64,000 bases of DNA from Malania oleifera. Taxonomy: Eukaryota > Streptophyta > Magnoliopsida > Santalales > Ximeniaceae. Made by a program: the position numbers and the translations under genes. The notes below the pieces were generated by a model, which saw only the letters and a program-made list of their open reading frames with translations, was not told where the DNA came from and ran no database searches. The stretch spans positions 72,838,597 to 72,902,596 of the forward strand of contig NC_080419.1 of the NCBI RefSeq assembly GCF_029873635.1. The letters run 5' to 3'. Shown here piece by piece: positions 13,901 to 55,249 of the stretch (position 1 is its first letter; each line of letters opens with the position of its first letter).

Positions 13901-16900
13901 TTGTGCATGTTGCAGAATATCGCAGAAATGCTCCGTCTTAATGTACCAATGGCAATGAAGTTAGCATTTGACAGTATAAAAGATTCAAAGTACAAAACAA
14001 GAGATACAACTATCAATGATATTGGTGGGTTTGAAAATGTTGAGTTGTCTTTACTTCTTTGCAATGATGAGTTTATTCGCAAGCTTAACATAGATTGGAG
14101 GGATGAGGATCATGCTACTGATGTGCTTTCCATGTCCCAACACATCCCTGAACTCAAGCTTCCAATTGTAAGAACACAATCAGTCTACCAAATGTCTATT
14201 GTGAGTGACAAACAATTGATAACATGACGTGCTTTTTTATTTTGCAGCTTATGTTGGGTGACATTGTAATTTCTGTTGAGACAGCTGCTAGACAAGCACA
14301 GGAAAGGGGGCACACGCTTCTTGACGAGATACGCATCCTTATGGTCGGTTTAAACACTATTTTCTTTATTATCTTGTATGTCGTTATATTATGTGTGAGA
14401 ATACCACTTTACCCTAAAAGCTCAAGCTGTTACGTTATGATTCAACAATGTATATTAGGGGTTAACACTTCCCTGCATGTGCAGCGTGACAGCATGTGGA
14501 GAGATAAACAAACAATAAACAACACACATTACAGGGAATAAGATAGTTCTTAACAAATAGATGATAAACACGGGTGACAAGACTTGAGCCTAGGACCTCC
14601 TGGAAACTTGGCTTTGATACTACCACTTTACCTAAAAGCATAAGCTGTTAGGTTGTGGGCCAGCAATGTACATCAGGCCTTAACAATATGCTTTAGTATA
14701 ATGATTGTGTGTTACTTACTGTCAGAAGATAATGTCATATTTTATTAATTAGTTTGAGTGAGTGGGGTTATTTTTGTGCTTAAGTATTTATTTATTATTA
14801 CTATACAAAAGGGCAGGCCTGGAGTTGTATGTATGCTTCAGAAAACTATGGCTAGGCTCTCTTCTTATTCTCTTCTCCATCTCTAACCCTAAGTGCTGCA
14901 GTGTCTTCATTGAATCTTCAATTTATTTCAGATTTACGACATGGTATCTGAGCAGATTCTCAGAATCTGATGCAGTTACAGCCATTCTCTTCCTCTCCTT
15001 TTCTCTCCCTTGTCGACCCACTCTTAACGTAGTTTTTTTTTCCCCTGGTTTGAGAGTTGTTTAGGGTTTCATATCCTTCTCCTCTCATCTGTGAGCCACC
15101 CTTGTCAGTGTTGTGTGGCTTGTGGTAGATTGCTCATGTAAAGGCAGCACCCTACTGTTTCTAGCAGACTGCTGTTGCTGTTCTGTTGTTTCCTAGGACT
15201 GTTCGTCGACTGATGATAAAGTTATGATGTCGTGGTTGTTCTTTCCATGCCTACCTATCCTTCTAGCTGCTGCCAGGTTATTAAGTGCCTATGCTGCTGT
15301 TTTAAGTGTCTCGGTGCATCATTGTGGTCTGCCCTGTTCCAAGCAGCCAGAGTGTGGTCTGCTCTGTTCTGTGATCAAAACCAACTTTGACAGGATGACT
15401 GAGAGACTGTTTATGTCTGTGATTCCTCCTAGGATACTGCAAAACTTAGTTTTGTGGTTGTAACTTCTTGTTGAGGTTCTGGTTCATTGAAGATCTGGAG
15501 CCCTGTTCTGTGCTTGTATTTGCTGCCTGATTCTGCTTTTTTGCTGTGTGTTGTTCATTCCTGTTGTGTTTGTGGTGGTTGTGATGGCCTATGTAGAGAG
15601 AGCTTTGGCTGATGTGGTTAACACACATATCACAGCCATCAAATTGGTTGGTCCTCCAACTACTTCTTGTAGTCTCAGTGTCTGTGTATCAATGCAAAAT
15701 GGAAGTCCAAGTGTTTGCTGTATTTCCTCCGTCACTAGACTCTAAGGATGATGAATATTGGGTGAAAGAGAATGGCATATTGCTTGTGTGGTTGTGGAAT
15801 AGCATGGAGCTGTGAATTGTTGCAAATTCGGTCTTCCATAGAACAGACAAGTCCAAATGATTTTGTGAAAGCTTCTCACGAACATAAAAATCAAACTTGA
15901 GTTTTTGACTTGTATGAGAAGTTTTGCAAATACCAAGAAGGTAGGTCCATCATTGAGTATTTTAGTACTGGGTATTTGGGAGGAACTCAATATATCAACT
16001 AGCTAGTTCCGACATTCGGATGACTAAGAGGAAATAGGAAGAGTTTTTGATTGCCAGGTTTCTATTTGGGTTGAGTCATGAGCTTCAACCCTTGCATGAT
16101 TATATTCTTGTTGATGAATCCAGACCATCCATGAATGAAGCATATGCTTCAATCCTATGGATCACCAAAGATTGAATTTAGTCGTCTTCTCGAGCTTCTT
16201 TCGTGATAGGTTAGGCATGGTTAGGACCACCTCTAACCGTGTTGTTGGGATCTTCATGGCAAATTGACTTGGGCCCCTAAAACTCTCTTATCGAGGGTTA
16301 CTATCCACACTTCAAGTGCACTTGGCCACCCCTCTTAAAGGAGTATAACAATCTTGTTGCATGGTTCAACGACTCCAACCCATTCTTCTACATTAGTGCT
16401 ACTGCGGCCCATTGAGGTATAGTTGGGCTTCTTGGCTCTTCATCCTCCTCACTTGGGTTATTGATCCTGGTGCTGCCAATATGAAAGGTAGTCTTAATTT
16501 ATTTTAGTCCCTACTTTGTACTCTTAAGGTTACTCTTGTTGATGGTTTGTCTACACTAGTTTCTGGTTGCTGCAAGCCTGCAATGTTCCTTTGCTTCCTT
16601 CTATCCTCTTCGCGTGTATTATATGTTTCTGAAATTTCCGTTGAACTTGTTATGAGTTAGTCAATTAATTAAATCTTATAATTATTTTGTAACCTTCTTT
16701 TCTTCTCATTAGTGCATGATCTCTAGATGAAGAAGAGAATTGATGGAAGGCTTGAGAAAGATGGCCTGTACTATTTCGATATGGTGGTAGATCCAGTTCT
16801 TGTCATACAACTTCCATAATTTGTAGTCATGGTGTTTCTCTAGAGCATTGGCATGCTCGTTTGGGTCATCCGTCCCTTAAAAAAATGCATCTTTTTGTAT

Positions 16901-19900
16901 GTGTTCTTCTCATCAGTTATGGAAGCATATTAGAACATCTTTTCCATTTAAAGTCTTGTAGTAATTATTGTTATATATATATATATATATATATATTTTG
17001 GGTCCATGTAGAGTTAAGAATTTGATTGGTCATTAATATATGATGTCTTTTATGGATGATTTTGTGTGCATGACCAGGATCTATTTGTTAAGAGTCAAGT
17101 TTGTATTTTTGAGTGTATTTACTCAATTGTAAGTGGAAATAAAAACTTAATTTAGCAGTGATATTCAAATTTTTTGATTTGATAATGCTAAGAGTTTGTT
17201 CAAAATGAGCTTTAGTCTTTTTGCTTGGCCAAAGTGATTATTCATCAAGCATCTTTTATACATTCCAATTGAATAGCTAAATGAAAAAAAAAAATAGACA
17301 TTTACTTTGCACAACATGGTCTTTGCTCCTTCGTATGCATGTTCTTAAAAAATTTTGGACTGATGCTCTTCTTGTTCCTACTTAATGAGATGCCTTCTAG
17401 TGTTACCCATGCTCTCTGTAGTGCCTTGTGTTTTTGGGTGCACATGTTTTGTTCATGTTTCTCATACTGGTTGAGAAAAATTCTCTCCTTGTGCTATTAA
17501 ATGTATCTTTGTAGGATACTCGACAAAATATATAGATATTATGATTCCCACTTGCTGTAAATTTGTTAGTGACTATGTCACCTTTTTTGAGGGGACTAGA
17601 TAGATATTATAATTCCCACTTGCTGTAAATATGTTAGTACCTTTTTTGAGGGGACACCTTATTTCTCTAGTGCCATGTCCTCTTTGGTTGAATCTTTTTT
17701 TTAGCCCATTGACGACTTATGGTCCCGCCCTCGTGTGTTGATCCTCATTTTCCTACCTTATCCCTTCTGAGAAATGTTCTAGTCTTTTGAATCCATTAGT
17801 TGCTGACCTAGAGAAATAATCAAGGGTTGTTTTTGAATGACGGAAAGTAGGCACAAACATCACTAACACCATGTAGCTGCCTCTTCTACCAATCACTATT
17901 TTGACTTTTGGTTCTGGAGGTCCATGTAAGGTGCTTGGATTTTCCCATTGCTTACCAAAAAGTTACTCAAACACGTGCTCAGCAGTATTTAGTTGCTTAT
18001 CCTCATTATGTTCTAGTTATTCACCTTCCTAGTCCTATGCATTTTTTGCTTTGTCTATGTCCTCTATTTCTATCCCTTCCTCACATGTTGAAGTGCTTGC
18101 TAACCTTGTGTGGAAGGATGCAATGAATCTATAGTGGATGCTTTGACCACTCTAGGGGCATGGGGCTTGGTGGATTTTACTTTGGTAAGGAGTTGGTTTG
18201 GCGTCGTTAAGTCTACAACATCAAATACCTTCCTAACGGCTGTATCGAACGGCTTAAGGTTCGATTTGTTGCATAAGAGTACACCTAAAAATATGATATT
18301 GATTATTTTGAGACCTTCTCTCTTGTTGCATGCAAGGTTTTTATAATCGGGATCCTACATAGGATTGTTGGGAGGGTTGCAGGATTGGATTGTAAGATCG
18401 GATCGTGGATTGTAAGATTCTACTTATAATGTAAAATAAATTAAAAATTTATATCTTTTGGCAATTTATGACATCTCTTAATAAAATAATCCTAAAAACT
18501 TGGTAGTAAGTTCAAGAAATTAAAGCAAATTTTAGGAATGTTGCTAGCTTGCTAGCTAGCACCTAGCAAGTTTTTCCTTCAACATTTTTGAACCTGAAAA
18601 AAAAAAAAATCTAAGTAGCTTGGATTTCAAAGTGCTTTGCAAAGGACAGGCTATTGCTAGATTATCTATTTTATAATTATAATTAAAAAGAAAAACAAAA
18701 AGAATGAAGAGAAGAAGGAAGAAGAAATTGCTAATATTTTTCAATGAACTGATGTAAATTTCTTAGTTTCTGCGGTTTTGTCATCAGACCGTAAGAAGAA
18801 GAAGGAGAAGAAGTTAAAAAAAGAAGGAAGAGGAAGAAATTTTTGTTAGTTGCAAAGAAAAAAGAGGAAAAAGAAAGCTATATGCTCTTTGCTTTGGGAA
18901 AAAAAGATAGGTCTATGGCTTGTCAATAATAGGGGAAACAAAAAAGGAAGAAAGTGAAAAAAACTACAAAGATAACGCGTAACTGCCATAGGCCTGCAAC
19001 TTTAAGCTCTCAGCCTGACTGTGCAACTCCCTATTTGTTGAAGCTCTTTGCTGATCTCAAAGCTATTAGTGGATCTCTACTGTTGCTAGAAGAAGGAACA
19101 CCCAAGTCTACTGATAGACAACCTAGGATCTGTCTATCAAGAACTCTGAGCTCCTAGAGAGCTTTCAATTTTGAGGAAGAGAGCTTTCAAGAGATGCTCA
19201 GTTGCTCTCTTGACTTGGATTGAGCAAATCCTAGAACATGCTAGTTATGTTGCCCTAATTTTGATGCATTTAGCCAACTAGACCAAATTTTGTGTCTATT
19301 GAAAAAGTAAAGTGTTTGGGCCAATAAAAATATATATTGGGCCTTTTTCATTAAATTCCTAAATAGGAAAAATCTATATTCCATTGCAAAAGTAGGATCA
19401 ATAGGATCGAGATCCTAAGATCATAAGGTTCTAGATAAGATCCTACTGGGATCCTACTTTATTAAGATTCTACTTAAGATCCGGATCGATTAGGCAAGTA
19501 TGGATTGTAGGATCATTGAATCGCACAATTTGGATCGGGATTTTGATAGCCATGGTTGCATGATTAAGTTATTTTTGTGTATTGGTCTCTTTGGTAGTTA
19601 ATTTTAATTGGCCCTTATACAATTGGATTTGAAGAATGCCTTCTTGTATGGAGACTTGCATGGAAAGGTACACATGGAGCAGCCTCTTGGGCATGTTGCT
19701 TAGGGGGAGGATGGTAAGTATGTAGGTTGCATAAGGCCATTTATGGTCTTTGATTGGCCTTTATACCAGTTGGATGTGAAGAATGTCCGTGTATGGAGAT
19801 TTGCACGAAGAGGTATACTGGGGCAACTCTATTGGGTATGTTGCTAAGGGGGAGGAGGATCAAGTATGTAGGTTGCAGAAGGCCATTTATGGTCTTGAGT

Positions 19901-22900
19901 AGTTTTCCTGAGTGTAGCGTGGTTTGAAAAACTTAGTGTGGTTCATAGTTGTCAAATCGAGATTTGAATCATGAATCAAAATTCCAATTTTGGGAATCGA
20001 GAATCAAATTGAATAGTAAGATTCGATATAAATTTCCAAAATCAATTCTAAATGACATGCATATTGTTGAAGATCTGCTGCATATGGAAGGCTACCACTT
20101 TTAGCAACTCTAAGTATAGAGTGTGCCGAGAATCACAATTAGTGTGTCCTAAATTAGACTTGCCTTATTAGCTATAATTTCCTAGAATTAATTGTATAGA
20201 GTGTGAGTTAATTTCTTTTTATCTATAGGCACTTGACTTTATGTATAAAAGCAGCAGTATATAATGACATTATTCACATCATAATACAAAACGTCATTCG
20301 TTAGTTTTTTCTACTTGGTATTAGAGCCTATGATTCTTAAGACCCTAGCCTCATAGTCCTGAAAAAACCCTAGCCGCACATTCCATCCCTGGGAAAACCC
20401 TAGCCACCTTCATCTTATCGAGCACATGTACTCAGGCCGAGGAAGAGGTTCAGCTGCCACCCTATCAGGCCGAGAAAGAAGTCCAGCCATGATGTTCAGC
20501 TGCCACCCTCTTAGGCTGAGAAAGAAGTTCAGCCGCCGCCCCTTTCTCAAGCAAAACCATAGCTGCCGCATGTCCTTACCCACCTGCACCAGACCTCACA
20601 AATCATCATGTCTGTTGACAGTACCCACCTACACCAGACCTCACAAATCATCATGTCTGTTGACAGTAAACATCTTGTGTCAGATATGCAATTCAACAGC
20701 CAGCATGATCAATCCAACTCCACCAATTATGTCAATTGGGCACAATTAGTCAAGATGACCGTCAGAGGGAAGAGCAAGTTGGGATATTTAGATGACTCTA
20801 AGAAGCGGCCAGAAGAAGATGAAGCTGCAACATATAGATGGGAAGATGAGAACTCACAGGTGTTGGCTTGGTTGATCAACACTATGCAGCCAAACATTGG
20901 TCGTAACTGCCTATTCATGGAGAAGGCAAGCGATCTATGGGCAGCTATGAAAGAGGAATTTTCAAGTGGAGGTAATGATGGTTCAATGAGTTGGAGAATC
21001 AGATCCGAGACACTAAATAAGGTGATTTAGATGTTAACTCCTATTTCAGTACTCTAAAGGGATTATGGATGGAATTGGATTATTATCAAAATTTATAACT
21101 TGAGAATTCTCATGTACCAATTAGAGTTACTCGCCTTATGGAGAAGGGTAGGACGTCTAAATTCTTGGTTGGTTTACGATTTGAATTTTATAATGTGTGC
21201 TCAATGGTGATTAGTAGAACTCCTTTACCTTCCCTTATTGAAGCTTTTCCAATGGTACGAAGTGAAGAGAGTAGAAGAAAGGCCATGACTAAGGATCGGA
21301 GTGGAGAATCCATGGCTATGGTAGTCAACAAAGATCGTAGACCTCCAAATAAGAGGAAGAAAGGGGACGACAAGGATAATCTCTGGTGTGACCAATGCAA
21401 TAAATGGAGGCATAATATTGATACTTGTTGGGAGATACATGGAAGACTAGGAGCTAATAGAGATAAAGGTAAAAAGGTGAGTAAAGCACATATGGCTGAA
21501 GGTGCTCAACAACAGAAGGAGACTGAGTCAGCTTTTACCAACAAGCAGCTTGCAGAACTAATGCAGTTACTAGAAATCCGTGCCAAGACTGCTAGCTCCA
21601 CAGGGGGTGGTAAAACTTCCTCTGCTCTCTCTACTACTTCAAATAACTGTAACATGTGGATTGTTGATTCAAGTGCTTCAGACCATGTGACAAGAAACAA
21701 TTCTGTTTTTATTTCATATAAACCTAGCCCTGGTAACCATAAAGTTGAATTTGATGATGATTCAGCATCAATATTTGCAGGAAAAGGAATAGTTCATCTT
21801 CGAGGGAAACTGACATTACCTAATGTTCTGCATGTGCCTCAACTATTAGCAAACCTAATCTCTGTTCAAAAGTTATGTAGGCAACTTAACTGTTTAGTGT
21901 GTTTTTTTGAATTTGGTTGTTTTCTTCAGGATCTAACCTCAATACAAAAGAGTGGTCTAGGTGAGGAAGAAAATGGGTTGTACCTAGTGAAGATGCACAA
22001 CAGGCACCAACAGCTGATACGATCCACAAGTTTTCATGGAATGCAACGACCTGGTGATCCTCCTAAAGCTTGGCTGTGGCATATGAGACTTGGTCATCCA
22101 TCTTTTCTTGTTCTTAGTAAAATGTTTACTAGCCTTATAAATTCCTCTGATGTATGCCAGTTTCATTGTTCTAATTGTGAATTAGCTAAACATCATCGAG
22201 TGTCTTATCCTTCAAGTACTAATAAAGCATCTACTCTTTTTTCAGTTATTCATTCAGATGTGTGGGGACCTTGTCGCATATCTTCTGTCTTTGGTCATTG
22301 TTGGTTTGTAACATTCATAGCTGAGCAAAGACATATGTGGGTGTATTTGATGCGTGACAAATCTGAGGTTTTTTCACTGTTGGTATTTTTTACAACATGA
22401 TCCAAAATCTCTTTGACACAAAAATCAGAATACTTTATAGTGACCAAGGTAGAGAATATGTCAATAATGACTTCAAAACATTCTTTACTGAAAAAGACAT
22501 TATTCACCATATGTCGCGTGCACACACCTATCCTCAAAAATGGTCTGGTGGAAAGAAAAAACCGGCACCTTCTAGATGTCACTCGCAACTTACTCTTTAA
22601 TCATAATGATCCTAAGCATTTTTGGGGTGATGCGCTCTTAACGGCTACCTTTCTTATTAATAGGATACCTTCTAGAGTTTTAGACTTTGAATCTCCATTG
22701 GACAAACTCAAAGTTATTTACCCCATGGTTAAATTCTATTATGATCTCTCACTACGTGTTTTCGGGTGTGATACCTTTGTTCAGAATGTGTCAAGCAATA
22801 TTAGTAAGCATGGTTTTAAATGACGGTTGTGACAGTTACACAACAGTGTTACGTAACGGTTTTTTGGGTTACTGATACCGTTACACATTGCGAAATGGGT

Positions 22901-25900
22901 GGGAAGAAAAACCACGGCTGTACGGCCGTTATGGACCGCGACCGTTGCGTAAAGACTGCTATGACTGTTACGCAACCGCTATAGGACCGTTACACCAAAA
23001 TTTTCTTTTTATTTTTTACTTTTTCTTCTCACTTTTTTCCTTCTCTTTCATAAATCATTCTCAATATACCATGTGGTGAGGGGGAAAAAGATTATAATGA
23101 GGATGACAATGATACAAAATTTACTATTTCTTTAAATAGTCACAAGAGATGCATTAATTAACAATTTGAAAATTCTAACTTGTTAGGAAAATATTTTATT
23201 TTGATAATATTAGTAATGTGATATTTATATTAATTTAGCACACATAAGAATTTGTCACAGATAAGAACGATGAGAAGTATAAATACGCACACACATGTAA
23301 TTTTTCTATCAATGGTGGTTTGAAATAAATGTAAACTTGTTGCTCTTACCAAATAACTTAGTTTCTCGAAGTAAAGGATCCAAAATACACTAAAATTGCT
23401 TCTAAGACGGGCTAAAAGCTTAAAAACATGCAAGTACACTAATATGCACAAGGTTGTGTGTGCTTCAAAAAAATTCACGGTTGTTACACTCGCTTCCCAT
23501 TATGTAACATCCGCTACTCCCGCTTCCCGTTACACCCCTTATCGTTATGTTATGCTACTTGCTACCGTGATTTAAAACCATGTTAGTAAATTAGAACCTT
23601 GTGCAACAAAGTGTATTTTCCTTGGGTACTCAATGTTTGACAAAGGGTACAAGTGTTATTGTCCACAGACTCGTAAGTTGTTTATTAGTAGACCTTCCAC
23701 GAGTTGGTCCTATTTTACCTCCCTACTGCTTAGCAAGGGGAGAATAGGGTTAATCTCGAGCAGTTATGGAGTCCTAATCAAGGTCTAGATCAAGTCTTCT
23801 TGCCAATTGCTACGCCTACTGAAGTGTAGGAATATGAAGCTATCATAGAACACCTTGACCTGTAGCCTGAATAGCGTGACCACCTGTAACCTGAACACCT
23901 TGACCTGCGGCCTGAACAACTTGACCACCCTGACTTGCAGCCTGATCTCTTGCAACTAAAACGTGCACCTGGAGACATCCTACCACTAGACACTTCGCAA
24001 CTTGAACCTGAACCCACAACTACCGTGTAGGAGACTAACTCTTCTAATTTGCCAAAAATAGCAGAGTTTTTGACATACCAGAGGAGAAACACACTATCAA
24101 TACCAGACAAAGAACCAGGCACAACTGAATCTATTCATTCCTCACAAGATCCCTTGGATGCAATAGAAGGAAAGTATATCTGAAGGTACAAACTCAACTT
24201 TAGATTTGTACAGTGAGCTTGATATGCCTATTGCTATTAGGAAGGGGGTTCAAACATGCACTAAACATCCACTGTCAAATTATGTATCCTATCATAGACA
24301 TGGACTAGTGTTTAAAGCTTTTGCTACCAACCTAACATGTCTTTCCTGTAACGCCCCGGTCCCAACTTACGGCTCGGGTGTTACTGCAGTGACATCTGTG
24401 TACCTGATATACTTCTCAACAGATATATATGCAGCGGAAAACATAAACATCCATCAAACTATTACCAGAGTTCTAACTGCCTGATAGATACATACAACTA
24501 TTCCAACATCCATATACAATACTGTATGATACTCGACGCATCCTCAAGTCTTACAACATTTTACAAGTTCTAAAAACCTGTAACATAACCTACAAAATCG
24601 AGTTCGTGGAGATGCTCACTCAAAAACAAATCGTTACCCTGCCCCAATCCTTGCTAATCTCAACCTCGATAAGGACCTGAAAAGACAGTTTGTATGATAG
24701 GGTGAGACACCTCTCAGTAATGGACGATTAAGCTAATAACAGTGTGTGACCAGCATGCTTTAAGTGTTTAACAAAAACGTTAACATATATAATCATCGTT
24801 TCCATAATTGTAAAATACGTAGCCCATTTTCATCATATGAACAACCCCATAGTATATGTATAAATCCCCACAATCAGGGTTGACTGCCCCTACTGTCTCA
24901 ATGCAGCCTGGGTACACGATCAAGAGGCAAACTCATACTAAGACCGCCCCTACTGTCTCAATACAACCTAGGTTCATATAGATCAAAAGTGTGGTGCCCT
25001 CACTGGCAATGGGTCTGTGCCCACACTATCAGTCCCTAGGATTCCTAAAGCATATCGTGCAATTTAAGAAATTTAAACACTCTTTTGAAATCATTTCACA
25101 AAACACATCATGACGTGAAATTTGGCCCGTAGCCGTCAATTAAACTTCCTGCATTTTCATAACAGTTCCAGTATTTCACAACATCAACACCTGCCACACA
25201 GTTTTTCACATTCGAAAACAACCCAAAAGTAAATATAAACAGTTAATATCACAGTACGGGTTTTAAACAACGGAAACAACATTTCCAACTGGTGAAAAGG
25301 TCCGGAATGACAAGTACAATATTCTAAAAATATAACATTTGAATTTGACCCGTTGGTTTTGAAAATAAAGCCGGTTTACCGAACCGAGGCCCAGAAACCC
25401 TAGAACCGCCGTAACTTGATATCTAAAAGTTATTTCAATACTTCAATCGATTCATATTGTATAAGTCACTATATTAACATAACCCCCTAATTTGTGTGTG
25501 AATCGGAGTCCGAAACGACCCGAAACTCAAGCCCTAGCTTTCCGAACCCTGAACCTAAACGGTTCAAAACAACGACACGAAAATCCCGAAACCTAATACT
25601 TGAAGAATAACACTTTAGTATATCTCGTACCGGACCAAAAGCAAAAATTGACCCTTACCTCGATTTTCAGGAAAAACTCAGAAATCTTCGAAATGAAATT
25701 TTGATCCGTAGAACCTGTAGAGATTCCTTCCCTGATCCACGTAGCGACGTCGGATTGTCGATTCCGGCAACACACGGCCCGGAAATCTTAGAGAGAGAGT
25801 GGAGTTCGTGTCTAGAGAGAGAGAGAGAGAGAGAATGAGAGTTTATAAAGAAAAACCTAACTTGACCTTTAAGTAATCAAAATAAATATCTCCTCCAAGA

Positions 25901-25953
25901 TATTTATATATAAATATCTCAAAATATCTTCTCCAAAATATCTCTTTATTTAT

Positions 25954-25984
<31 letters not shown>

Positions 25985-28978
25985 TTGATCGGGTTACTAC
26001 AATCTCCCCCCCTTATAAATTTTTGTCCTCGAAATTTGCTAGTTGTTCCTATCACATCGTCTGAACTCTAACTGCTCTGTCTCTAGGAAGAGCTCGCGGC
26101 CACCCACATAGCAGCCTGTCCCAAATTTATTACCTACCCTCACTTATGGCGGAGGAATACGGCGGTTACATACATTAGTCTTGGAAGCTCACATTACATA
26201 TACAAACTCTCTCAGAGACAATCCACATACCCTAACCATAAGCAAAAAGGGATACACTCACATATTTACATTACCTGTCTAACTCTGAACATCGCTGAAT
26301 AGTTGAGGATACTTCTGACGTATCTCGGCTTCTAATTCCCAAGAAGCCTCCTCAACCGCGTGGTTACGCCATAGCACCTTTACCAATGGTATCTCCTTGG
26401 TACGCAACTTCTATACCTTCTGATCCAAAATCTAAACCGGTACCTCACCATAAGCTAGCGCTTCATTGATCTCTAAGACTCATAACTGATCATGTGCAAC
26501 GGATCTGACACGTACTTCCTCAGCACTGACATGTGAAACATATCATGCATCCTAGATAAGGTCGGGGGTAAGGCTACTCGATAAGCAATTGAACCTATCC
26601 TCTCCAAGATCTCGAACGGTCCAATGTACCGAGGACTCAACTTGCCCTTCCTCCCGAACCTCATCACTCCTTTCATAGGAGCAACCCTCAGAAATACCAT
26701 ATCTCCGATATCAAATTTCAGTTCCCGTCAGTGAGTATCGACATAACTCTTCTTCCAACTCTGAGCTGATCTGATCATTTTTCTGATAAGCTCGACCTTC
26801 GTAGAGGTCTGCTGAACCAATTCCGGTCCCAAAATCTGCTGCTCACCTACCTCATCTCAGTCTCATCCTCACTGGAGGCATTCAGGTGATTATCGCCTCC
26901 TACCATAATCCTTTTCCCTTTGGGTTCCATCCTGTACATAGGTAAAAGCCGACTTAATCATTCCACATTTAACACAATAAATGCAAATATGGAACGAGAA
27001 GATTAAACAACACGTATTCGAGACACCAACAGCCCATACTTACTAGGCTGTCTTACCTTTCATCTCGACATCCGAGTCAAGTCTCTCAACCTAGAAACGA
27101 AACCATCAATGGATTTACCATGGTTTTCCTGAAATCGTCATTCCTTGAAAAGCGCAGAAGACCATCGAAGGAAATCCCGCCTTCGAACTCTCTAACTCTA
27201 TCTCATTACGCCCAATACTTTGGTAATTTACTCACTGACCGTCAAAGTCTGCAGAACCTAGCAAACCTAGGCTTTGATACCACCTGTAATGCCTTGGTCC
27301 CAACATATGGCCCGAGTGTTACTGCAGTGACATCTGTGTACCTGATATACTTTCAACAGATATATACGCAGCGGAAAACATAAATATCCATCAAACTATT
27401 ACCAGAGTTCTAACCGCCTGATAGATACATACATCTATTCCAACATCCATATACAATATTGTATGATACTCGATGAATCCTCAAGTCTTACAGCATTTTA
27501 CAAGTTCTGAAAACCTATAACATAACCTACAAAATCGAGTTCGTGGAGACGCTCACTCAAAAGCAGATCGCTACCCTGCCCCAATCCTTGCTAATCTCAA
27601 CCTCGATAAGGACCTGAAAAGACAGCTTGTATGATAGGGTGAGACACCTCTCAGTAAGCGACGATTAAGCTAATAACAGTGTGTGACCAGCATGCTTTAA
27701 GTGTTTAACAAAAACTTAAACATATATAATCATCGTTTCCATAATTGTAAAATACGTAGCCCATTTTCATCATATGAACAACCCCATAGTATATAACAAC
27801 AATTACATAAATGTACAGATATGCAGGATAGGACATACCATGTATAAATCCCCACAATCGGGGTTGACCGCCCCTACTGTCTCAATATAGCCTAGGTACA
27901 CGATCAAGAGACAAACTCACACTAAGACCGCCCCTACTGTCTCAATAAAGCCTGGGTTCATATAGATCAAAAGTATGGTGCCCTCACTGGCAACAGATCC
28001 GTGCCTACACTATCAGTCCCTAGGGTTCCTAAAGCATATCGTGCAATTTAAGAAATTTAAACACTCTTTTGAAATCATTTCACAAAACACATCATTACGT
28101 GAAATCCGGCCCGTAGCCGTCAAATAAACTTCCTGCATTTTCACAACAGTTACTGTATTTCACAACATCAACACATGCCACACAATTTTCCACATTCAAA
28201 AACAACCCGAAAGTAAATATAACTAGTAAATATCACAGTACGAGTTTTAAACAACGAAGAGAACATTTCCAACCGGTGAAAAGGTCCGGAATGAAAAGTA
28301 CAATATTCTAAAAATATAACATTTGAATTTGACCAGTTGGTTTTGAAAATAAAGCCGGTTTATCGAACCGAGGCCTGGAAACCCTAGAACTGCCGTTACT
28401 CGATAGCTAAAAGTTATTTCAACATTTCAATCGATTCATATTGTATAAATCACTGTATTAACATAACCCCTTTGCTTGCGTGTGAATCTAAGTCCGAAAC
28501 GACCCGGAACTCAAGCCCTAACTTTCCGAACCTCGAACCTAAATGGTTCAAAACAACGGCACGAAAACCCCAAAACCTAATACTCAAAGAACAACACTTC
28601 AGTATAATCTCGTATACACCGGACCAAAAGCAAAAAACAACCCTTACCTCGATTTTTCGGGAAAAACTTGGAAATCTCCGAAATGAAATTCTGATCTGTA
28701 AAACCTGTAGTGATTCCTTTCCTGATCCACGTAGCGACGTCAGATCGTCGATTCCGGCAACACATGGCCCATAAATTTTAGAGAGAGAGAGAGAGTGGAG
28801 TTCGTGTTTAGAGAGAGAGAGAGAGAGAATGAGAGTTTATAAAGAAAAACCTAACTTAACTTTTAAGTAATCAAAATAAATATCTCCTCCAAGATATTTA
28901 TATATAAATATCTCAAAATATCTTCTTTCAAAATATCTTCTCCAAAATATCTCCTCCAAGATATCTCTTTATTTATTT

Positions 28979-29022
<44 letters not shown>

Positions 29023-32000
29023 ATTGGGTTACTACATTTCCATTCCAAAGAATGTCATAGAGGCACTTCAACAGGACAATTGGCGGAAAGTAGTATTTGA
29101 AGAGTTGGGAGCGTTAGAAAATAATCAGACGAGGAGTTGTGCACACTACCAAGAGGAAAAAGGGCAATTGGTTGTAGATGAGTATTTGCAATAAAGTATA
29201 AACTAGATGGAAGTGTTGAAAGGTTTAAAACACACCTAGTAGCTAAAGGATATACTCAAATTCTAGGTGTTGATTACTATGAAACTTTTTCTCCAATGGC
29301 TAAGATTAATACAGTTAGAATCCTATTGTCTCTAGTAGCAAATTTGGATTGGGAACTGAAACAGTATGATGTTAAGAATGCATTTCTTCATGGAGAACTT
29401 AAGGAAGAGGTCTACATGGAAATCCCTTAAGGGCTAATAGAAGAAGATGTAAAGGGGAAAGTGTGTCACCTTTAGAAATCCTTGTATGGACTAAAGTAGT
29501 CACCTAGAACATGGTTTGGGATGAGAGAAATGGGTAATAGGCAAAGTCAAGGTGATCATACTTTATTCATCATACACTTTACAAGTAACAAGATTGCTGT
29601 CCTGATTGTGTATGTAGATGATATTATTGTTACATGGAATATTGGAATGATAAAGAAGGAATGGAGAATCTGAAACTGTGGATGGCCCGAGAATTTGAGA
29701 TCAAAGACCTTGGAAATCTAAAGTATTGTCTAGGAATAGAAGTTGTCAGATCTAAATGGGTTCAAGACGTGTAAACAGCCTTTTGCAAAAATGCAAGGCA
29801 AGGCTGCGTACTATAGACCCATTGTGGTCCGCCCCTTCCCCGGACCTCGCATACGCGGGTGCTTTGTGCACTGGGCTGCATTTTTTTTTTTCCTTTTTTT
29901 AAAGAAAATATATTCTTGATCTATTAATAGTGGTTGGGATGGAAGTTAGTATACCAGCAGGAACTCCAATTGAAGCAAATGCCAAGCTAAGAATGAAGGG
30001 GGTGAAGTAGTTGATATAGGAAGATATCAACGGTTAATTGGTAGATTAATTTCCCTATCACATACTAGACCTGATATTACTTTTGTTGTAAGTTATGTGA
30101 GTAGGTTCATGCAGTGTCCTCGTAAAGAACATATGGAAGCTGTGAATCGAATCCTATGGTATTTGAAGTCATGCCCAAGAAAGGGCACCCTATACGAAAA
30201 ACATGATACATTGAATGTAGAAGTTTATACCGACTCAGACTGGGCAAGATGTCTGGATGATAGAAGATATGCTACAAGATATTGTGTATATATGGTGGGA
30301 AACTTAGTTACATGGAAGAGTAAGAAGAAAAATATTGTTGCTAGATCTAGTACAAAAGCATAATTTTGAGCCCTAGCCAGAGGATTATATAAGATATTGT
30401 GGATTAAACTAATCCTGAAGGACCTGTGAATGAACATCAATGGAAACATGAAGCTCTACTGTAACAAGTAGTCAGCAATCTCATTAGCTCACACTTCGGT
30501 ACTATATGAAAGCACTAAACATATTGAGATTGATAGATGCTTGATTAGAGAGAAAATTGAGTCTAGAGAAGTGTGTATGCCATATATCCCTACAGCTTAA
30601 CAAGTGGCAAATTTGTTTACTAAAGGGTTGGACAGGAAGACTTATGAAGCTCTGGTGGACAAGCTTTGAATGATTGACATCTATTTGCCAACTTGAGGGG
30701 AAGTGTTGAAGATCTGCCGCATATGGAAAGCTACCATTCTTGGCAACTCTAAATATAGAGTGTGCCGAGAGTCACAATTAGTGTATCCTAAATTAGACTT
30801 GCCTTATTAGCTAGAATTTCCTAGAATCAATTGAATAAAGTGTGAGTTGATTTCTTTCTATTTATAGGCACCTGACTTTATGTATAAAAGCAGCAGTATG
30901 TAATGACATTATACCCAACATAATACAAAAAGGCATTCGTTAGTTTTTTCTACTCATATACTGATATACAACCAAGCAGCAAAATAGTAAAACTCATTTG
31001 ACAACAAAAAAATCATATTTCATTTGTATGCTGTCCCTAAACAAATGAAAAGTAAGAGAATGAGTTAGGAAATATTAATAAAATGAGCTTTATATTAAGG
31101 GAAAGAATCAAGAAAAAAATAAAATAACTTGAATTTTTGGTATTTGTCAACAATTAAAAAATAGTAATATTGCATGCATACTCTTTCTTGGATTAAAAGA
31201 AAAAAAAACCAAAAAAAGGTACTAATTCAACAAACTACTGAAAAAACCAACTAAATCTTAACAACACAATGAAACACGGCAGGACACTATACTCCTCCTA
31301 GAGTGAAGAATGATTTTGTGAAGACAACATGAGACCTGAAAGTCTATTTTCTCCTCCTTTTTAGTACAAAACTAATGTAGGCAAGGAATGGTGAAGGTAA
31401 TTGTGTTAAAATAAAAGCAATAGAAAAAAGAAAGAAATTTTGTTTTAGGGGTTTCAAATTAGTTGGGTTTGTCAGGACATGATAGGTCCAGAATCGTGTG
31501 AATCAATAGATTCGGATCAAATCATTAGATTCAATTCACTAGGTGAATCGATAGATTCGACAATGATTCAGTTGTATTTAGATTCGTTAGTAAGATTCTG
31601 ATAGATTTGGTGTAGAAGTGATTCGAATCGTATGAATCGAATCATGAATCGTAAGATTCTAACTATGGTGTGGTTATCTTTGTAGTCAGCTTTATCCAGC
31701 CTTACTCTAATCATTTTGTCTTTGTTTGCTAAAGAGAGACATGTGGTTCGCCTAGTAGTTTATGTTGATGATGTCTTCATGCATTGACTAGAACAGTATT
31801 GCAAATGTGAAGTAGTTGCTTCTTCCAAATCAAGAACTTGGGTACTTAGCGTTATTTTCTTAGTATTGATATTATATGGTATAGGAAGGTTTTGAACCTA
31901 TCTGAGTGAAAATATACCTTGGACTTGTTAAATGAGATGGGTACATTGGGACCTAAACCAGTTGATACTCCTATGATCCCAATTTGAAGTTGTCTAAGGA

Positions 32001-35000
32001 TGTTGAACAGGACTTTGAAGACAAATATCAATATACATGGTTGTTTGGCAAGTTGATCTATGACTGTTACCAGATTGGCAGACTTAACATATCTTTTGTT
32101 GTAAGGGTGGTGAGTTAGTTTATGAAAAATCCCAAATGACCACTCTGGGACTTGTTTGTAGGCTTTTGCAGTATCTCCAAGGTTAGGTTTGATATATATA
32201 TATATATATATATGTAAGAGTCAGTGAGATCATGGGAGCTAGCTCTGTTGATGATTGGAGATCTACTATTGGATATTGCACATTTATGGGAGGCAATCTT
32301 GGTACTTGGAGCAAGAAGCAAACTACGCTAGCAAGATCTAGAGCTGAAGTAGAATACCAAGCTATGGCTGATATTTTGAGTGAGCTTATGTGGTTGGAGT
32401 CTCTTATGTGAGGGGTGGGATCCTTGGTAACGCTAGAAATATGTTCTTTGATAATCAAGTTGCCATTTATTTTGCTAGCAATCTAGTGTTTCATGAGAGG
32501 ACAAAGGACATTTAAATTTACTTTCATTTTGTGAGAGATGCTATGTTGAAGATCGTGAGCATGGTTTTAAATAACGGCTGCAACCATTATGTAACGCCGT
32601 TACGTAATGGTTTTTTGAGTTATCGATACTGTTACACACCGCGAAATTGGTGGGAAGAAAAATCACGGCTGTAGCGGCCATTACGGACCGCAACCGTTAC
32701 GTAAAGGCCGCTACGGTTGTTACGTAACCACTACAGGATTGTTACGCCAAAAAAATTATTTTATTTTTTACTTTTTCTTCTCACTTTTGCCCTCTCTTTC
32801 ATAAATCATTCTCAATATACCATGTGGTGAAAGGGGTAAAAGATTATAATGAGGATGACAATGATACAAAATTTACTATTTCTTTAAATACTCACAAGAG
32901 ATGCATTAATTAACAATTTGAAAATACTAACTTGTTAGGAAAATATTTCATTTTGATAATATTAGTAATTTGATATTTATATTCTATATTTTTCAACTTC
33001 AACCTTCTTCTTTTCTAGTTATTTTATATTTGTATTATTCGTATGTCTTATGTGTCTAATAGATTAATGGAGTGTATAATGTATTTTGTTTTATTAATTA
33101 ATTTAGCACACATAAGAATTTATCACAAATAAGAACAATGAGAAATATGAATAGGCACACGTAATTTTTCTATCAATGGTGGTTTAAAACAAATGTAATC
33201 TTGATGCCCTTACCAAATAACTTAGTTGAACTAAAGAATCCAAAATATACTAAAACTCTTTCTAAGAAGGGTTAAAAGCTTAAAACATGAAAGTATGCTA
33301 ATATGCACAAGGTTGTGTGTGCTTGAAAAAAATTCACAGCCATTACACCTACTTCCCGTTATGTAAAATCCGAAATTGTCGCTTCCTGTTACACCTGTTA
33401 CCGTTATGTTACACTACCTGCTATCGTGATTTAAAACCATGATCGCGAGGACTCCTTTTCATGAAATATGTAGATTAGTTAGGCATTGTTTTCACAAAGC
33501 CTCTATCTAAGCCTATTTATTGTGTCTAATAGGTTGTAAAAAGCTGGGGTTGGGTAATATTTGTAAACCTCTAGCTTGAGGATATGCTATTTTAGTACTT
33601 AGGTTGTGAGAGTGGGGGTATTTTAAAAAAAATGAAGGGTAGACTAAGAAATAATCCAACAGTAAAGCTTGCTGAAATGAGAACGTTAAGGTGGATGAGT
33701 GGCGTAACGCAAAAAGATAAATTAAGGAATGAACATATTTTCTTTAAGTTAGGCGCAGAACCTGTAGAAGATTAGGGCTGGGCACCTTAGATGGTTTGGG
33801 CACCAGCAACGTAAGCCAAATAGTGCACTGGTTAGGAGGATTGAGCTAGTTACTCTGATTGGCAGTAAAATGGGTAGAGGTAGACCTAAAATAACTTAGA
33901 AGGAGATAGTAAATAAGGAGTTAATAGCCCTTAAATTGTTGGAGGAAATTGCCAATGATCAAGGAAATTGGTGGAAAAGGATTCATGTAACCTGCCCCCA
34001 CCCCCACCTAGTGAGACTTAAGGCTTGGTTTGTTGTTGCATATAAAAGGGCACACCTAGAGCTATACGTATGCTCCAGGAAACTGCCAGCGTTTTCTCCT
34101 CTTCTTCTTCTATTCTTCTCTTCTCCATCTCTAACCGTAAGTGCTGTATTTTCTTCATTGAATCTTCAATTTATTTCAAATTGAAACACTTATAATTATC
34201 TTTGCATTGATGATGACATTTCATAATTACTGTTAAGGTTTTTTGTTTCTATAATTATTTGCGATTCAGTTATACATTGCTTTTGTTCAATCTCTTTGAA
34301 AAATCATACAGCTGGATGGTAAGATCAAGTGTATTTTCAAATTATAAAAGTTCTGGAGAAATTTAGAGCACACTTTTAAAAGAGAGTATTCGCCTTTGCC
34401 AAGAGGACAAAACTATCCTATAAGCCTACTCTATCATAGTCCAGTGTGTTTTAATGGGAGAGGAAAGCAATGACAGTCAGCATCTTGGCCTTAAAGGAAA
34501 TAAGTGGTTATGTAGGCAGATTTTCTATCATTTCCAGTTTCTAAATAACTCTTTCAGTCTTGGTGCTGCTAATTTGTATTATTTGAATTAAGAAGAATAA
34601 TTTTGTCACCCTTCTGCAGGTTCATGGGTTGTTACATTTACTAGGATTTGATCATGAGATTAGTAATGAGACTGAAGCAGAAATGGAGGAGGCAGAAGAA
34701 CTTCTTTTGAAGAGTCTTGGATGGAAAGGAAAAGGGTTGATTCAGTATGCAAATGATTCTGAAACTAATGGAAATCTGCATACTGAAGATCTGGGTGGTA
34801 ATTTGACTGTTTTTTCTGTTTTACAATTATGACAGTTTCCAATAGATATTCCCATTGGATACTTACAATACAATCTTTATCCAATTTTGAAACCATACAC
34901 TTGATGTGAGTTTTCCATGAGAGAATCTTACTTGTGAATTGTTAAAAGACAGGAAGAAAGATGGCAGTCTTCGATTTTATAAACCGAAGTTCAAATACAT

Positions 35001-38300: not shown

Positions 38301-41300
38301 AGGGTGGAAGAGGTGGCTGATGATGGTATTATCATCTGCACTGGTTTTCAATGTTCATGCTCATTTTCAATTGTATCTCTGGTCCAATGATCAATGGTCA
38401 GGAAGAGGAGTAGGACTGTCCTCAAGGAAAGAGTAGGGATAGATGATCAAGACAAAGGGGGATCATAATTTGTTGACAAAATCAAAATATCTACACCCTT
38501 TTCTATGTTCTTTTAGCAAAGAACCTTTTCTCTATGCCTTCTTGAGGCCTCCACCAAACCTCTTTTTTATTTGGAGGTCTTAAATAATGCAATGAAAAGG
38601 GGAGAAATTTACAAAGTGGTTTTGAGATTTAGTTAATTGACCAACAGATAACAAATTTGAAGAAAATTTAGGTGCATATAATCCATATAAAAGAGGAGTG
38701 GAAGGAAAGAGAAGAATATTGCCACAACCAAAAGCTCGGGTAGTTGAATCATGAACAAGGGCAATCTTGGAGTGTAAAGTACTAGTTTTCAAGGAATGAA
38801 GTAAATCAAGAGCACCTATCATATGGGAGGAGGCACCAGAATCAGTCGCTTAGGAAGAAGAGGCGAAGAGGGAATAGAAGACTGCGTTTGGATTTGTTGA
38901 ACCATGCAGACAAGATTGTTATACTCCTCTTGAGACATGGTGGATGTAGAGTGGTCATGTGTGCTAAGAGGATCAATAGTAGAATTACCCTTAGCAAGTG
39001 ACTTATTAGCCCAAGTCGGTTTTCTATGAAAATCCCAATAATGATCAACAATATGGTTTTCCTTGTTGCAGTGCATGCAAATGTGGGAACTGTTACAACA
39101 AACACCATGTCCCAATATGCCACCTCTACCACAAACTGTCCCCAAATCTTAGCCTCATCCTCCAACACTACCCCTATTACGGTTAGAGGCAGTTCCAAGC
39201 ATGGATGAAATTTCTCTAGAATAGGCTTGTGGACAGGAAAGAGATCCATCTTTCGTGATCTCTTGGGCTTTTGTGATATGGTTCACTCATAGACTAGATG
39301 GACTTATGGGCTTGAACCTGATCACAGACAAGTTGGAGCTCAGGACTTAAAGCAGACAACAGCTAAGAATTCTGCTTGTTCCGCCTTAATCATCTCAACA
39401 TTAGAACTAATTGGTTGGTAGATATTGTGTTCCTTCCACATACTCTTGGGAGTACTATAGTACTCATTAACTACCTACTCTCTTGGTCAACTTTGAAGAA
39501 CTTCTACTAATCAAAGCATGTGTTTGATTTTTATCTTGTGAGAAGCTTTCACAAGATAAAGGAACAGGGTTGTGTTAAGTTGCTGACAGCCAACGTAAAA
39601 CTTTCTCAAATCTTTTTATCATGAATTCTTATCAAAATCACCTAGATCAAGGGAATAGACTGGGTTAGTATAAAAGGGAGAGGGTTAATAAGTTAGTACA
39701 AGAAACTAAGATAAGATTAGCAACTTGGAATATAGGGACTCTTATGGGAAAAAGTATGGAAATAGTGGAAATAATGTTTAGAAGGAAAATTAATTGAGTT
39801 AGCTTTCAAGAGATGAAATGGTAGGAGAGAAAGCTAGGGAAATTGAAAAATTATGATTTAAACTTTGGTACACTGGGAGAGAAAAACCTAAAAATGGGGT
39901 GGGTATTATTGTAGATAAGAGATCTAAAAGATAATGTAGTAGATGTTAAAAGAATAAGGGATAGGATCATTGCAATCAAGTTAGTTTTAGGCCTAGAGAT
40001 AGTAAATGTCATTAGTGCATATGCTGCCCAAATAGGCTTAGCAGAAAATCTGAAAGACAATTTTGGCAAGATATGAATAGTTTTTTACAAGGGATCCGAT
40101 GTCTGAAAATTCATAGGAGTTGATTTGAATGTTCACATTGGGAAGAATAATATAGGGTATAAGAGGATACATGGAGGCCATGGATATGGAGATAAAAATG
40201 AGTCTGGTGTTACAATCTTAGATTTTACCATATCTTACTATTTGGTCACATTGAATACTGACTTTATAAAAAGAGAAGAACACTTAATAACTTTCAAGAG
40301 TGGATACAATAAAAGCCAAATAGATTTATTTTTAACTAAGAACAGGGACTTTCTATCTTGAAAGGATTGTAAAGTTATCCTAGATGAAAGTTTGACCATA
40401 CAATATAGTCTTAGTATTAGATATACATATTAAAGAATGGAAGAGAAGGAGGAGCAAAAATCAACACAAGAGGACTAGATGGTGGAACTTGAAGGGAGAT
40501 AGTATAGTAAAATTTTAAAGTAAAATGAACAAAAGTGTGATTGGACAATAGGGGATAAGGTATGAAAAGGGGTAGGGGTAGGCCTAGCCTAATATTACTT
40601 GGAATGAGGTAATGAGGAAGGATTTAATATCCCTTAATCTAAAAGAGGAAAATGCTCTAGATTTGGTGAATTGGTGGAAAAGGATTCATGTAGTCGATCC
40701 CACCTAGTGGAACTTAAGGCTTGTTGTTGTTGTCGAGAAGCTTTTGCAACCCTTACATATCAGCAATCATATGAAATATCACATTTGCAGCAATGCTAGT
40801 TTCATGCTATTCCACCACCACACAATTAGCGAGTCATTCTCCATAATCCAATTGTCACTCTTCATAATCCTTGGAGGTCTTAATATGCTGGAGAATGCAG
40901 CAGAATCTTAGATTTATTTTTTGCATTAATTTATACATTCTTATCGCTCGAGCTCATTACAAGTGATTGGAGGAGCCAGCTGTGATCTGCATATTAACAT
41001 TTTCAGTAGACTCCCTATAGAGGCCAACAAACCCCAACATACCACAAAGCAGCACACGCCAGCACCAGCCCCCAAAAAAAGGTAGGAAAAAAACAATGAA
41101 AAAGCAGTTTATCAGTTGCACCCCGTAAGAATAGAGGCGTAGAGCACAGAAGGAACCATACATCAGATCATAAAGGTTCCCCACAAACAATGTTTTGGAG
41201 GCATTCTAGGGCTTTAGTAACCACCCACCATCATATAACCAAACAGCAGCTATCACAAAGTCACACCACGCCCCTGCAATTGCAGGAGCCTGAGAGTGCT

Positions 41301-44300: not shown

Positions 44301-47300
44301 AGCAAGCAGTGGCCACTGGCTGCTGACATAAGCGTCATGAGGCTGCTATTTGGTGTACCAGACAATGTTGATGCTAGAAATTAGCAAATGGTCTGTTTTA
44401 GTTTGACGTAATTTCATTTGCCTGGTTCTATTGCTACCACAGTTGACCTAGGTGGTTGCTGGCAGTTGCACACAAGTGATTGGTGGCACTTACCCTGCAC
44501 AGAGATACTGTTGTAGCCATCTTATGGTTATCACCTATTTGAAGATGGCTCCAACTGTGCAATTAGTAAGTGCCAGTTAGTATGACCTTTGTGAGGCAGT
44601 GACCCCTCATCTCTAGAACATCATTGTTAACCAAGCATTTTGATATAAATCATTTACCCAGCACTTCTTTGGATAACACTTGTCCAAATCATAAATATTT
44701 TGGCTTATGTACCAAGTATTTGTCAGAAAAATAGTTCTCTGTTGTAAACTGAGGTTCCTGTTTAAATTCACAGCTTACAATCAAAGGCTTCACTATTCCT
44801 GCTAGAAGAAAGAACTTTGGATGCCAATTATAATAAGGAGAATTTATTAATTCATGCTCGTGTCTAAAATAACTACAATATTTTGCTTTTATATGCATTT
44901 TAAAAATCAAAAAACCAGATTTTACGGGTCTTTTGTAAAAGTACCAGCCATTTTCGAGTAATTTTCTTTTTTGCACTGGGACTTTCTACATTTGGTTATA
45001 TTGCTGTTAGAAGCAAAGGGTATAAAGGATGAAATAATTTACAAAGCATGCTAATTTGTTATAGCATACTTATTTTTATGTCTCACAAAAGAAAATAATT
45101 CTTAAAATTGCAGGCACTTTTATATTCCTGGGAGCATAAAGTTCCTCTTATTGCATTCAGTGAGGATCGTTGCTTAACTCTATTTGATCACCCTCTCATT
45201 GACTCAGCACATGCTATATATCATGAGCCGAAGGTCTCTGACAGAAGAATATATTAGTTTTTTCTCACACTTCTTTCTATAATTTCCTGAGTAGTCTCTT
45301 TGTGCATATAATTAATATGGATTTTCCTCATTCTCTACAGGCAGAAATCATGCCTTCGATTGAACACCTCTTGGCTGTTGCTGACATACAGGTGAACAAT
45401 GAAACTTGCAGGAATAATCATAAGATAAGTTGGTGCAGGACAAGAGAGAGAGAGCATTTAGCTATGGTGAGATAAGGAAATTGGAGAGAAATAATTGTAT
45501 GAAGAGAGAGACATGAGAGGAGAGAAAGGGATACAAGAGGATGACTGCGACCCTTGCGAGGGATCACCATAGGGCCACAAAGGACCCAAGCTGTTTCACA
45601 AGCAGCTTGAAAGCTGCACTTGGTAAGAGCTTGTTCAAGCTTGTTCATTATGTAAACAAGCAATTCCCATGCCCAATTTTGAGGCTCGTTTAATAAACGG
45701 GCCAAACTTGAAGATGAATGGGCTCGGCTTGTGAACAGCTTGGTTATGGGTTCGGTTTGGGCTTGTTTAATAGGATAGGATTGAATTAGGATTATTTGTG
45801 GGTTAGATTAATAAGGTCGAATTAAGCTTGATAAATTGTAGTGGACTTACAATTAGGGACTGTTTGTGCATATGTTTCTTTAGCTCGAACTCCATAACTT
45901 GAATTTAGTGATAAGGCTAATACTTGAGGGCAATAGGCTAAATGGTGGTGCAAGAAAAAAATCAGTATTAGTAAGAGCCCTTTTTCCCTTTTTTGCCTAG
46001 CAAAATCTCTTGCCTCTCAAAATGAGAGGTTCCAAAAGAACTGAACCGTTAGCGAGCATCTTGTGCTCGGCTTGGTAAGGACTCATGAGCTTGTTCATTT
46101 GCATAATGAACAAGCTTGAACGAATAGATTAAAGCTCTTAGCTTGGCTTGATCTTGAGTTTGATTTAAATTTAATAAATAAGTTTGAGCATGGAAAAACT
46201 TGGTTTGGTTCGGCTTGGCTCATTTGTGGCCCTAATTCACCGTGCTTATAGTAACAAAAACACAATTTCAATTTTACTTTGATTGAAAATCCTTTATAAT
46301 AAAATATTGATGCGGACTTATCCTACGGTTTTAAAAATTGCACGTTTCTCTTTTGAGGTTTAGCAAAAAGTGCAACAGGGACCTTTTTTGAGAATCTAAA
46401 AATTTCATAGATATATTTGAGGTTAAGTAAAATGACACGAACCTTCCATATTTGGAAAAAGACAAGTAGTAGGAGTGGGGGGGGGGGGGGGGGTGGTATG
46501 ACTTATTAGTGTCTCAAAGATCAAATGTTTGGGGTGGTCCCCAAGATTTTTGAAATCTCAAGGTATGTTTGTGGGATTTTTGGAATGGCCTGCATCTTAT
46601 TTCTAAACCTTAGTGGGGGGATCAATGTCTTTGGCTTTAATATTTTTATTCCTAATTTTGATTAAAATCCTTCTAAAAATTTCAGTTTTTAAGTGGGATT
46701 TACTGCTATTCTAGTCACTGTCCTGTCTATCCTTCCAGATGAATTGAACAATTTATCTTGATTGGTCCCAAGTGGACAATCAAACAAAATTAATATTTAT
46801 TATGCTTGCTGTTTTTGGATTTCCCTGTTATGACTAACATTTATTACAGAAGCTGATATTCTTAGACACTTCTGAGGGTGTCTCTACTACTTTGCGGCCA
46901 TACTGGTCAGAAGCAACTGGAGATCGTGCCAGAGTTGTCCAAGCTGTACCAGATATGCTCGAAGTTGTTCCAGTTGGAACTTCAAAAGGGAGTGGTGTAA
47001 GAGTGCTGCTTGATCATTTGGGTGTCACTGCAGAAGAGGTATGGACTTGTGAAATTTTCATGCCATGTGAGTTTATGGTCCAAACTGAACCATGTTTAAC
47101 TAACACTGAAAAATGAAAATATGCAACCCATGTCACATAATATATATGTTAGTGTTAGAGCAACTTTTGTCTTCATGACAATAAAAATTGTTAATTTAGA
47201 AGACCATAAGAAAGGTGGGACTGAATACACAGTCTCCTTGCCTTGTCAGGAAAATATAAAAATTTTACCGTCAGGATCAATTTACAACATCTTACACCCC

Positions 47301-48496: not shown

Positions 48497-49098
48497 CACT
48501 TGTAGATTTCAGTATTTTGGATCTATTATGTAAGCTGAAAGAGAAATTGAAAATGATGTATTGCATAGAGTTAAAGTAGGGTAAAATGGAGAAATGCTTT
48601 AAATGTGTTTTGTGGTCGTAGAATACTTTTAAAATTAAAAGGGAAGTTTTATAGGATGGTTTTAAGGTCAGCTATGCTATGTAGATAAGAATGTTGGGCA
48701 ACGAGGAAGCATAATTTTCAAAAAATAAAAGTAGTTAAGATGAGAATGCTTAGATGGATGAGTGGTATAAAACTGAAAGATAAATTAAGAAATGATTATA
48801 TTTGCAGTAAGTTAGGTATAACTCCTATAGATGATAAGAGAAAGATGACTCAAATAGTATGAACACTTGCAACGTAGACTAAATAATGCGTCAGTGAGAG
48901 AGTGAGTTAGTTACTATGGGGGACAGTAGAAATGACATGAGTAGATTTAAAATAATTTAGAAGGAGATAATAAGAATTTAATAGTGTTGAATTTGTTAAA
49001 AGAAATGGTTTATGATCGCATAAATTGACGAAAAAAGATTCATAGAGTCGATCCCACCTAGTGGGACTTGAGCCTTGATTTTATTGTTATTGTTGTAA
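48497..49098 (+). mobile_element. RTE-type LINE 3' fragment
   Basis: Broken frames read the RTE RT end: 'FRYFGSIM' (near 48510), 'REIENDVLHRVKVG' (48541-48580), 'VVKMRMLRWMSGIKLKDKL' (48733-48790). It ends with 'CACCTAGTGGGACTTGAGCC' and TTATTGTTGTT. 5' truncated, just downstream of the gene and in the same sense. Confidence 0.85.

Positions 49099-54225: not shown

Positions 54226-54256
<31 letters not shown>

Positions 54257-55211: not shown

Positions 55212-55249
<38 letters not shown>

Follow-up and report, generated by a model that had tools for sequence, protein, structure and literature searches.

Four generations of transposons nested within one intron of a YbeY-HAD gene in Malania oleifera

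How did one intron of a plant gene come to span 20 kb, and does the gene around it still work? These questions are raised by a 64,000-nucleotide stretch of the Malania oleifera genome (1.494 Gb), hereafter the window, which is part of contig C3 (NC_080419.1, positions 72,838,597 to 72,902,596). The gene, by its predicted protein, encodes a plant ribosome-maturation enzyme in which a YbeY endoribonuclease is joined to a HAD hydrolase domain. Nine transposable elements were counted in the intron, and once the outermost of the nested elements, copia A (contents included), and a small element of the terminal-repeat retrotransposon in miniature (TRIM) type were taken out, about 515 bp of host sequence remained of 20,276 bp. 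A succession of ordinary transposition events into a single intron of the YbeY-HAD gene, with the intron still spliced, is in our view the very likely explanation of the locus as a whole, and the stack itself, with its boundaries, nesting and empty sites, is practically certain. The nesting runs from the host intron through copia A, hAT-like element 1 and copia B to a reverse-strand, internally deleted Ty3 element. A preliminary description had called this a five-level nested stack; target site duplications (TSDs) and empty sites in relatives from the same genome bear out the nesting, and the stack is four transposon layers deep, reaching five levels only with the host intron included. The intron and its elements are as follows.

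14344 to 34619, plus strand: host intron, 20,276 bp, GT...AG, splice sites read; about 515 bp of host residue
14394 to 14685, minus strand: TRIM-like mini long terminal repeat (LTR) element; terminal direct repeats of about 73 bp; TSD 4/5 (TTATG/ATATG on the plus strand)
14720 to 34188, plus strand: copia A, outermost stack element, decayed; LTR start by eye from relatives; TSD present; PF13976 below cut-off
18333 to 19554, no strand assigned: hAT-like element 2, inside copia A; TSD GTTGCATG 8/8
19944 to 31667, no strand assigned: hAT-like element 1, inside copia A, carrier of copia B; TSD GTGTGGTT 8/8, ends CATAGTT
20065 to 30954, plus strand: copia B, inside hAT-like element 1; LTRs 20065-20315 and 30704-30954; TSD CATAT 5/5
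22809 to 23582, no strand assigned: hAT-like element 3, inside copia B; TSD TTAGTAAG/TTAGTAAA 7/8
24347 to 29036, minus strand: internally deleted Ty3 element, inside copia B; PF24626 E=5.9e-27 at 26476-26727, minus strand; TSD TTTCC 5/5
32560 to 33441, no strand assigned: hAT-like element 4, inside copia A, of the family of element 3; TSD ATCGTGAG/ATCGCGAG 7/8
33629 to 34039, ends approximate, plus strand: 5'-truncated long interspersed nuclear element (LINE) tail inside the copia A 3' LTR; 5218 first-look genome candidates; relatives span the site

The three inner layers had been credited with perfect TSDs, and these were found at the ends of the respective elements: GTGTGGTT at 19936-19943 and 31668-31675 for hAT-like element 1, CATAT at 20060-20064 and 30955-30959 for copia B, and TTTCC at 24342-24346 and 29037-29041 for the Ty3 element. 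The ends given earlier for these three elements hold as well, and the three further hAT-type elements mentioned with them were located (elements 2, 3 and 4 above). For two random places in the intron, the chance of agreement is 9.5e-5 for 8/8, 6.9e-4 for at least 7/8, 1.6e-3 for 5/5 and 2.1e-2 for at least 4/5.

We then used an empty-site test on six inner insertions, in which the flanks were joined without the insert and aligned to insert-free relatives from the same genome. A copia A reverse transcriptase (RT) query gave 41 matches at 30 loci, of which the window itself (L030) was left out and 29 were tested; for hAT-like element 1 and copia B, the relatives were the best six of 44 and the best six of 42 matches, respectively. 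At approximately 67-79% identity, the joined flanks were spanned in 26/29 copia A relatives for hAT-like element 1, 15/29 for element 2 and 24/29 for element 4, with no gap near the join in 20/26, 9/15 and 1/24 of the spanning relatives, respectively. These gap-free counts support a single-base insertion point well for element 1 and fairly for element 2, while that of element 4 is placed by its TSD. The copia B site was empty in all six best relatives of hAT-like element 1, each with one CATAT, and the Ty3 site was empty in all six best copia B relatives, one of which lacks a single C of TTTCC. In the same group of copia B relatives the site of hAT-like element 3 was empty in five, the sixth having no match there. 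Thus, when the inserts are removed and the flanks rejoined, the interrupted elements resume where their relatives run through, as the preliminary description had anticipated.

Our first wrong-join control was too loose, as displaced joins were often spanned (23/29 relatives for hAT-like element 1 at +60; 16/29 for element 2 at +150, of which 11 passed the gap rule; 4/6 passing for copia B at +150). A stretch of about 145 bp duplicated in tandem within the copia A RT may account for the +150 spans of element 2. Under a stricter rule, by which the 40 columns to either side of the join had to be 60% identical or more, the true joins passed in 26/29 (element 1), 14/29 (element 2), 22/29 (element 4), 6/6 (Ty3), 5/6 (element 3) and 6/6 (copia B) relatives. 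The displaced joins, made by shifting the right flank by five different distances at every site, yielded three passes in all, two of 29 for element 1 at +100 and one of 29 for element 2 at +60. Joins of flank plus insert were spanned in no relative at five of the six sites and in 1/29 for element 4, where the lone span is probably a loose extension in L044.

The layers could also be classified by their own structure. Pfam found transposon domains in 6/10 pieces scanned, those of copia A only below the cut-off. Copia B has paired LTRs of 251 bp (91.2% identical) around a Ty1/copia order of domains, with a copia-type gag and the integrase part ahead of the RT: on the plus strand, PF14244 (gag), PF22936 (Pol_BBD), PF13976 (gag_pre-integrs) and PF25597 (SH3-like) are followed by PF07727 (RVT_2; E=8.6e-21). 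Its pieces 22401-22820 and 29974-30360 gave no Pfam match. Both copia B LTRs (window positions 20315 and 30954) end in ...CTACT and not the usual CA. The LTRs of the Ty3 element (24347-26001, 1655 bp; 27285-29036, 1752 bp) run from TG to CA and are 92.4% identical; the internal part of about 1.28 kb holds a Ty3-type SH3_Tf2-1 domain (PF24626), and most of gag-pol is missing.

Copia A is harder to read. By its RT motifs we take it to be probably of copia type, in plus-strand sense. It was previously given a start at 14755, which lies 35 bp inside the LTR. Of 40 scored matches to its 5' LTR (window included), 19 relatives were fetched; by eye, TGTTAGAAG is exact in 7/19 and near in form in several more, some 18 bp left of the best-match starts, and its position in these relatives sets the LTR start in the window at 14720. 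The 5' LTR thus covers 14720-14941, and the 3' LTR, at about 33571-34188, is interrupted by the LINE tail; the TSD matches at 4/5 (CTTAC at 14715-14719, CTTAT at 34189-34193). A gag_pre-integrs match (PF13976) in 16756-17022 scored 23.5 bits, the Pfam curated cut-off being 28.4, which is consistent with an old, decayed copy, and pieces 18104-18343 and 32193-32408 had no Pfam match. Within the RT region of copia A, at 19600-19900 of the window, some 145 bp are duplicated in tandem.

The four hAT-like elements, of about 0.8-1.2 kb, combine 8-bp TSDs with short terminal inverted repeats, as expected for the hAT superfamily (inverted ends CATAGTT in element 1, CAAGG/CATGG in element 2 and CATGG in elements 3 and 4; element 1 has an own length of about 0.83 kb). 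In another copia A relative, a copy of the element 4 family (L033 2557-3413, 85% over 891 columns, reverse orientation) adjoins the matching site; it is an independent nearby insertion, and possibly reflects target preference. The LINE tail had been described as an RTE tail. It lies inside the copia A 3' LTR, and 20/29 copia A relatives align through the joined flanks without the tail, with gaps and blurred ends. One piece each from the LINE copies L073 and L074 gave no Pfam match that would confirm the RTE label, and the tail is putatively RTE-type by its sequence. Repeats resembling the LINE tail (33885-33989) lie at 40588-40692 in another intron of the host gene and at 48942-49046 just downstream of the gene (74% and 60% alike).

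Outside the stack, the element at 14394-14685 was at first taken for a short interspersed nuclear element (SINE). We rejected this identity, as direct terminal repeats, with a TG start and CA end on the minus strand, are the architecture of a TRIM. The element is 292 bp long, its repeats are approximately 79% identical over 72 sites, and a 5-bp TSD matches at 4/5. In seven relatives that were fetched, two LTR-like ends can be made out by eye, and the TSDs range from good to poor.

In what order did the layers arrive? The earlier reading, copia A first, then the hAT-like element, copia B and the Ty3 element, is upheld by the nesting, and the LTR distances likewise make copia A the oldest. Kimura two-parameter (K2P) distances between LTRs were 0.273 for copia A (standard error 0.045, 189 sites), 0.094 for copia B (0.021, 251 sites), 0.081 for the Ty3 element (0.007, 1652 sites) and 0.245 for the TRIM (0.067, 72 sites). 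The copia A LTR pair is about 74-77% identical, depending on the alignment. The value of 0.273 (77%) leaves out the LINE tail, the unaligned 14789-14803 and the first 8 bases, and the last part alone gives 0.244; a fuller but poorer alignment without the LINE tail gives 74% identity and 0.326 over 210 sites. An estimate of 64% identity and 0.498 was dropped, as it used the wrong LTR start and included the LINE tail. Every copia A estimate exceeds the copia B and Ty3 values, which supports the greater age of copia A. The precedence of copia B over Ty3, whose divergences are not separable, comes from nesting. The grass rate of 1.3e-8 gives approximately 10.5, 3.6 and 3.1 million years for copia A, copia B and Ty3, respectively, a rate that may not be that of this plant.

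Is the gene around the stack intact? The exons next to the large intron are listed here.

13917 to 14167, plus strand: host exon, YbeY domain part 1; PF02130 E=4.5e-7 at 13919-14167, profile 25-61; acceptor and donor read
14248 to 14343, plus strand: host exon 5' of the large intron, YbeY domain part 2; PF02130 E=1.5e-6, profile 68-97
34620 to 34798, plus strand: host exon 3' of the large intron, YbeY domain part 3; PF02130 E=5.6e-8, profile 98-129 (Pfam match 34620-34799)

The intron begins with GT at 14344, directly after exon 14248-14343, and ends with AG at 34619. The YbeY profile keeps its order through the three exons and runs on from position 97 to 98 over the intron, in agreement with the limits 14344-34619 claimed before. 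In Pfam the YbeY domain is followed by two matches to the HAD hydrolase domain PF08282, at 46844-47041 (E=8.6e-5) and at 47874-48038 (E=1.2e-17), and an approximate plant protein probe matches pieces from 13910 to 48038. The host protein read from the window had 10 matches in the genome, every one inside the host locus, and a YbeY profile search of the genome found one place only; thus, no second copy of the gene was seen in these searches. Since all these protein matches sit in the host locus, the intron is probably still removed by splicing and the gene probably still works. That the gene is working and the intron must still be spliced, as first proposed, is a reasonable inference from open exons and single-locus status.

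Several observations weigh against this account. The intron donor reads ATG|GTCGGT, the donor consensus being GTAAGT, and host piece 45111-45233 gave no Pfam match, nor did 4/10 of the transposon pieces scanned. The motif GTGTGGTT occurs six times in the window, with 1.81 expected; the TSDs of copia A and the TRIM match at 4/5, which alone is weak, and two hAT TSDs at 7/8. The empty site of hAT-like element 2 was seen in 15/29 relatives (14/29 under the stricter rule), alignments for element 4 were gap-free near the join in 1/24 only, and LTR divergence does not separate the age of copia B from that of Ty3.

Among the alternatives, the one that fares best, though we consider it unlikely, holds that the insertions are real and the gene is dying: the stack would block transcription or splicing and leave only a truncated YbeY without the exon that carries the histidine motif. 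The intron does fall inside the YbeY domain, ahead of that exon, whose histidine motif is presumably the metal site. Copia B lies in sense with the gene, as copia A appears to do by its motifs, and both could offer poly(A) signals. However, the exon pieces taken on both sides of the intron match the YbeY/HAD profiles or the plant probe without stops, the host protein matches no other locus, and with copia A as old as it looks, decay should already show. Far less probable is that the stack arrived in the intron ready-made, as a single unit duplicated from another place, a transfer that inner-layer TSDs alone do not exclude; copia A, however, has its own 4/5 TSD in intron sequence, and four stack queries with about 40 scored matches each reached 100% identity only at the window. 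Repeat-dense stretches are prone to misassembly, but stitching of unrelated repeats is the least credible option, as TSD copies bounding the insert and resumption of the interrupted element as in relatives would have to arise six times.

Successive transposition into a spliced intron would then run as follows. The TRIM and copia A would have entered a host intron of roughly 0.5 kb; later, three hAT-like elements and the LINE tail would have inserted into copia A, copia B into one of these hAT-like elements, and a fourth hAT-like element and the internally deleted Ty3 element into copia B. The gene probably still works, with the intron spliced out and the silenced transposon body transcribed through and not used for termination, as reported for intronic transposons of Arabidopsis (PMC4417168). 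A single-locus organellar RNase that depends on the removal of such an intron, about 97% of which is nested transposon and which interrupts the catalytic domain, could even have an output that follows the silencing of the stack, and the gene would then be a natural heterochromatin sensor like the Arabidopsis cases; we regard this idea as a long shot.

Elsewhere in the window, long direct repeats at 51939-60111 lie about 6.4-6.5 kb apart and are 85-93% alike, with 75-bp repeat units inside; they probably represent an additional LTR element on the 3' side of the host gene. A further repeat pair (53771-53904 and 62410-62543) is 8.6 kb apart and 94% alike. At the left end, an open frame at 345-821 resembles by eye the C-terminal part of a Ty3 integrase.

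The locus offers a record of four insertion generations in known order in one single-locus gene, against which LTR-based dates can be checked, as the nesting gives a succession of events which LTR divergence by itself does not supply. It is also useful for asking how plants splice transposon-filled introns, and leaves current knowledge unchanged.

How does this stack compare with known systems? In the parts of the literature drawn on here, nested transposon clusters were described with REANNOTATE (PMC2672092) and nested insertions in maize and rice Mutator-like elements (MULEs; PMC3903597). As there, later elements interrupt earlier ones and the nesting level gives the order in time; the cluster in the window differs in that it occupies an intron and has DNA and LTR elements in alternating layers. 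Plant TRIMs (PMC4717578, PMC6934838) are portrayed as a short internal domain enclosed by a pair of terminal direct repeats, a layout shared by 14394-14685, which we liken to them by architecture. Intron 5 of oil palm EgDEF1 reaches 36.3 kb, partly from a 10.9-kb Koala Ty3 element (PMC3956824). Both are very large plant introns grown by retrotransposons, but EgDEF1 has been studied and is expressed, whereas the gene in the window is known from sequence; the four-deep stack is a feature of the window, none being described for EgDEF1 in the portion of that study used here. In 2,697 large introns of grapevine, repeats account for more than 80% of the sequence, with copia elements more numerous than gypsy (PMC3058033). 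The process and the dominant element type are the same, whereas that work stresses young LTR pairs and the two LTRs of copia A stand about 0.27 substitutions per site apart. In Arabidopsis, intronic heterochromatic transposons need epigenetic factors for full-length transcripts, and Le et al. suggested that heterochromatic marks on them aid splicing or prevent premature polyadenylation (PMC4417168). Transposons lie in introns in both cases, the relatively long ones named in the section consulted being about 5 kb. Nested insertion and transposon-driven intron growth are thus already known in plants; the kind is ordinary, and the window is a well-resolved example of it.

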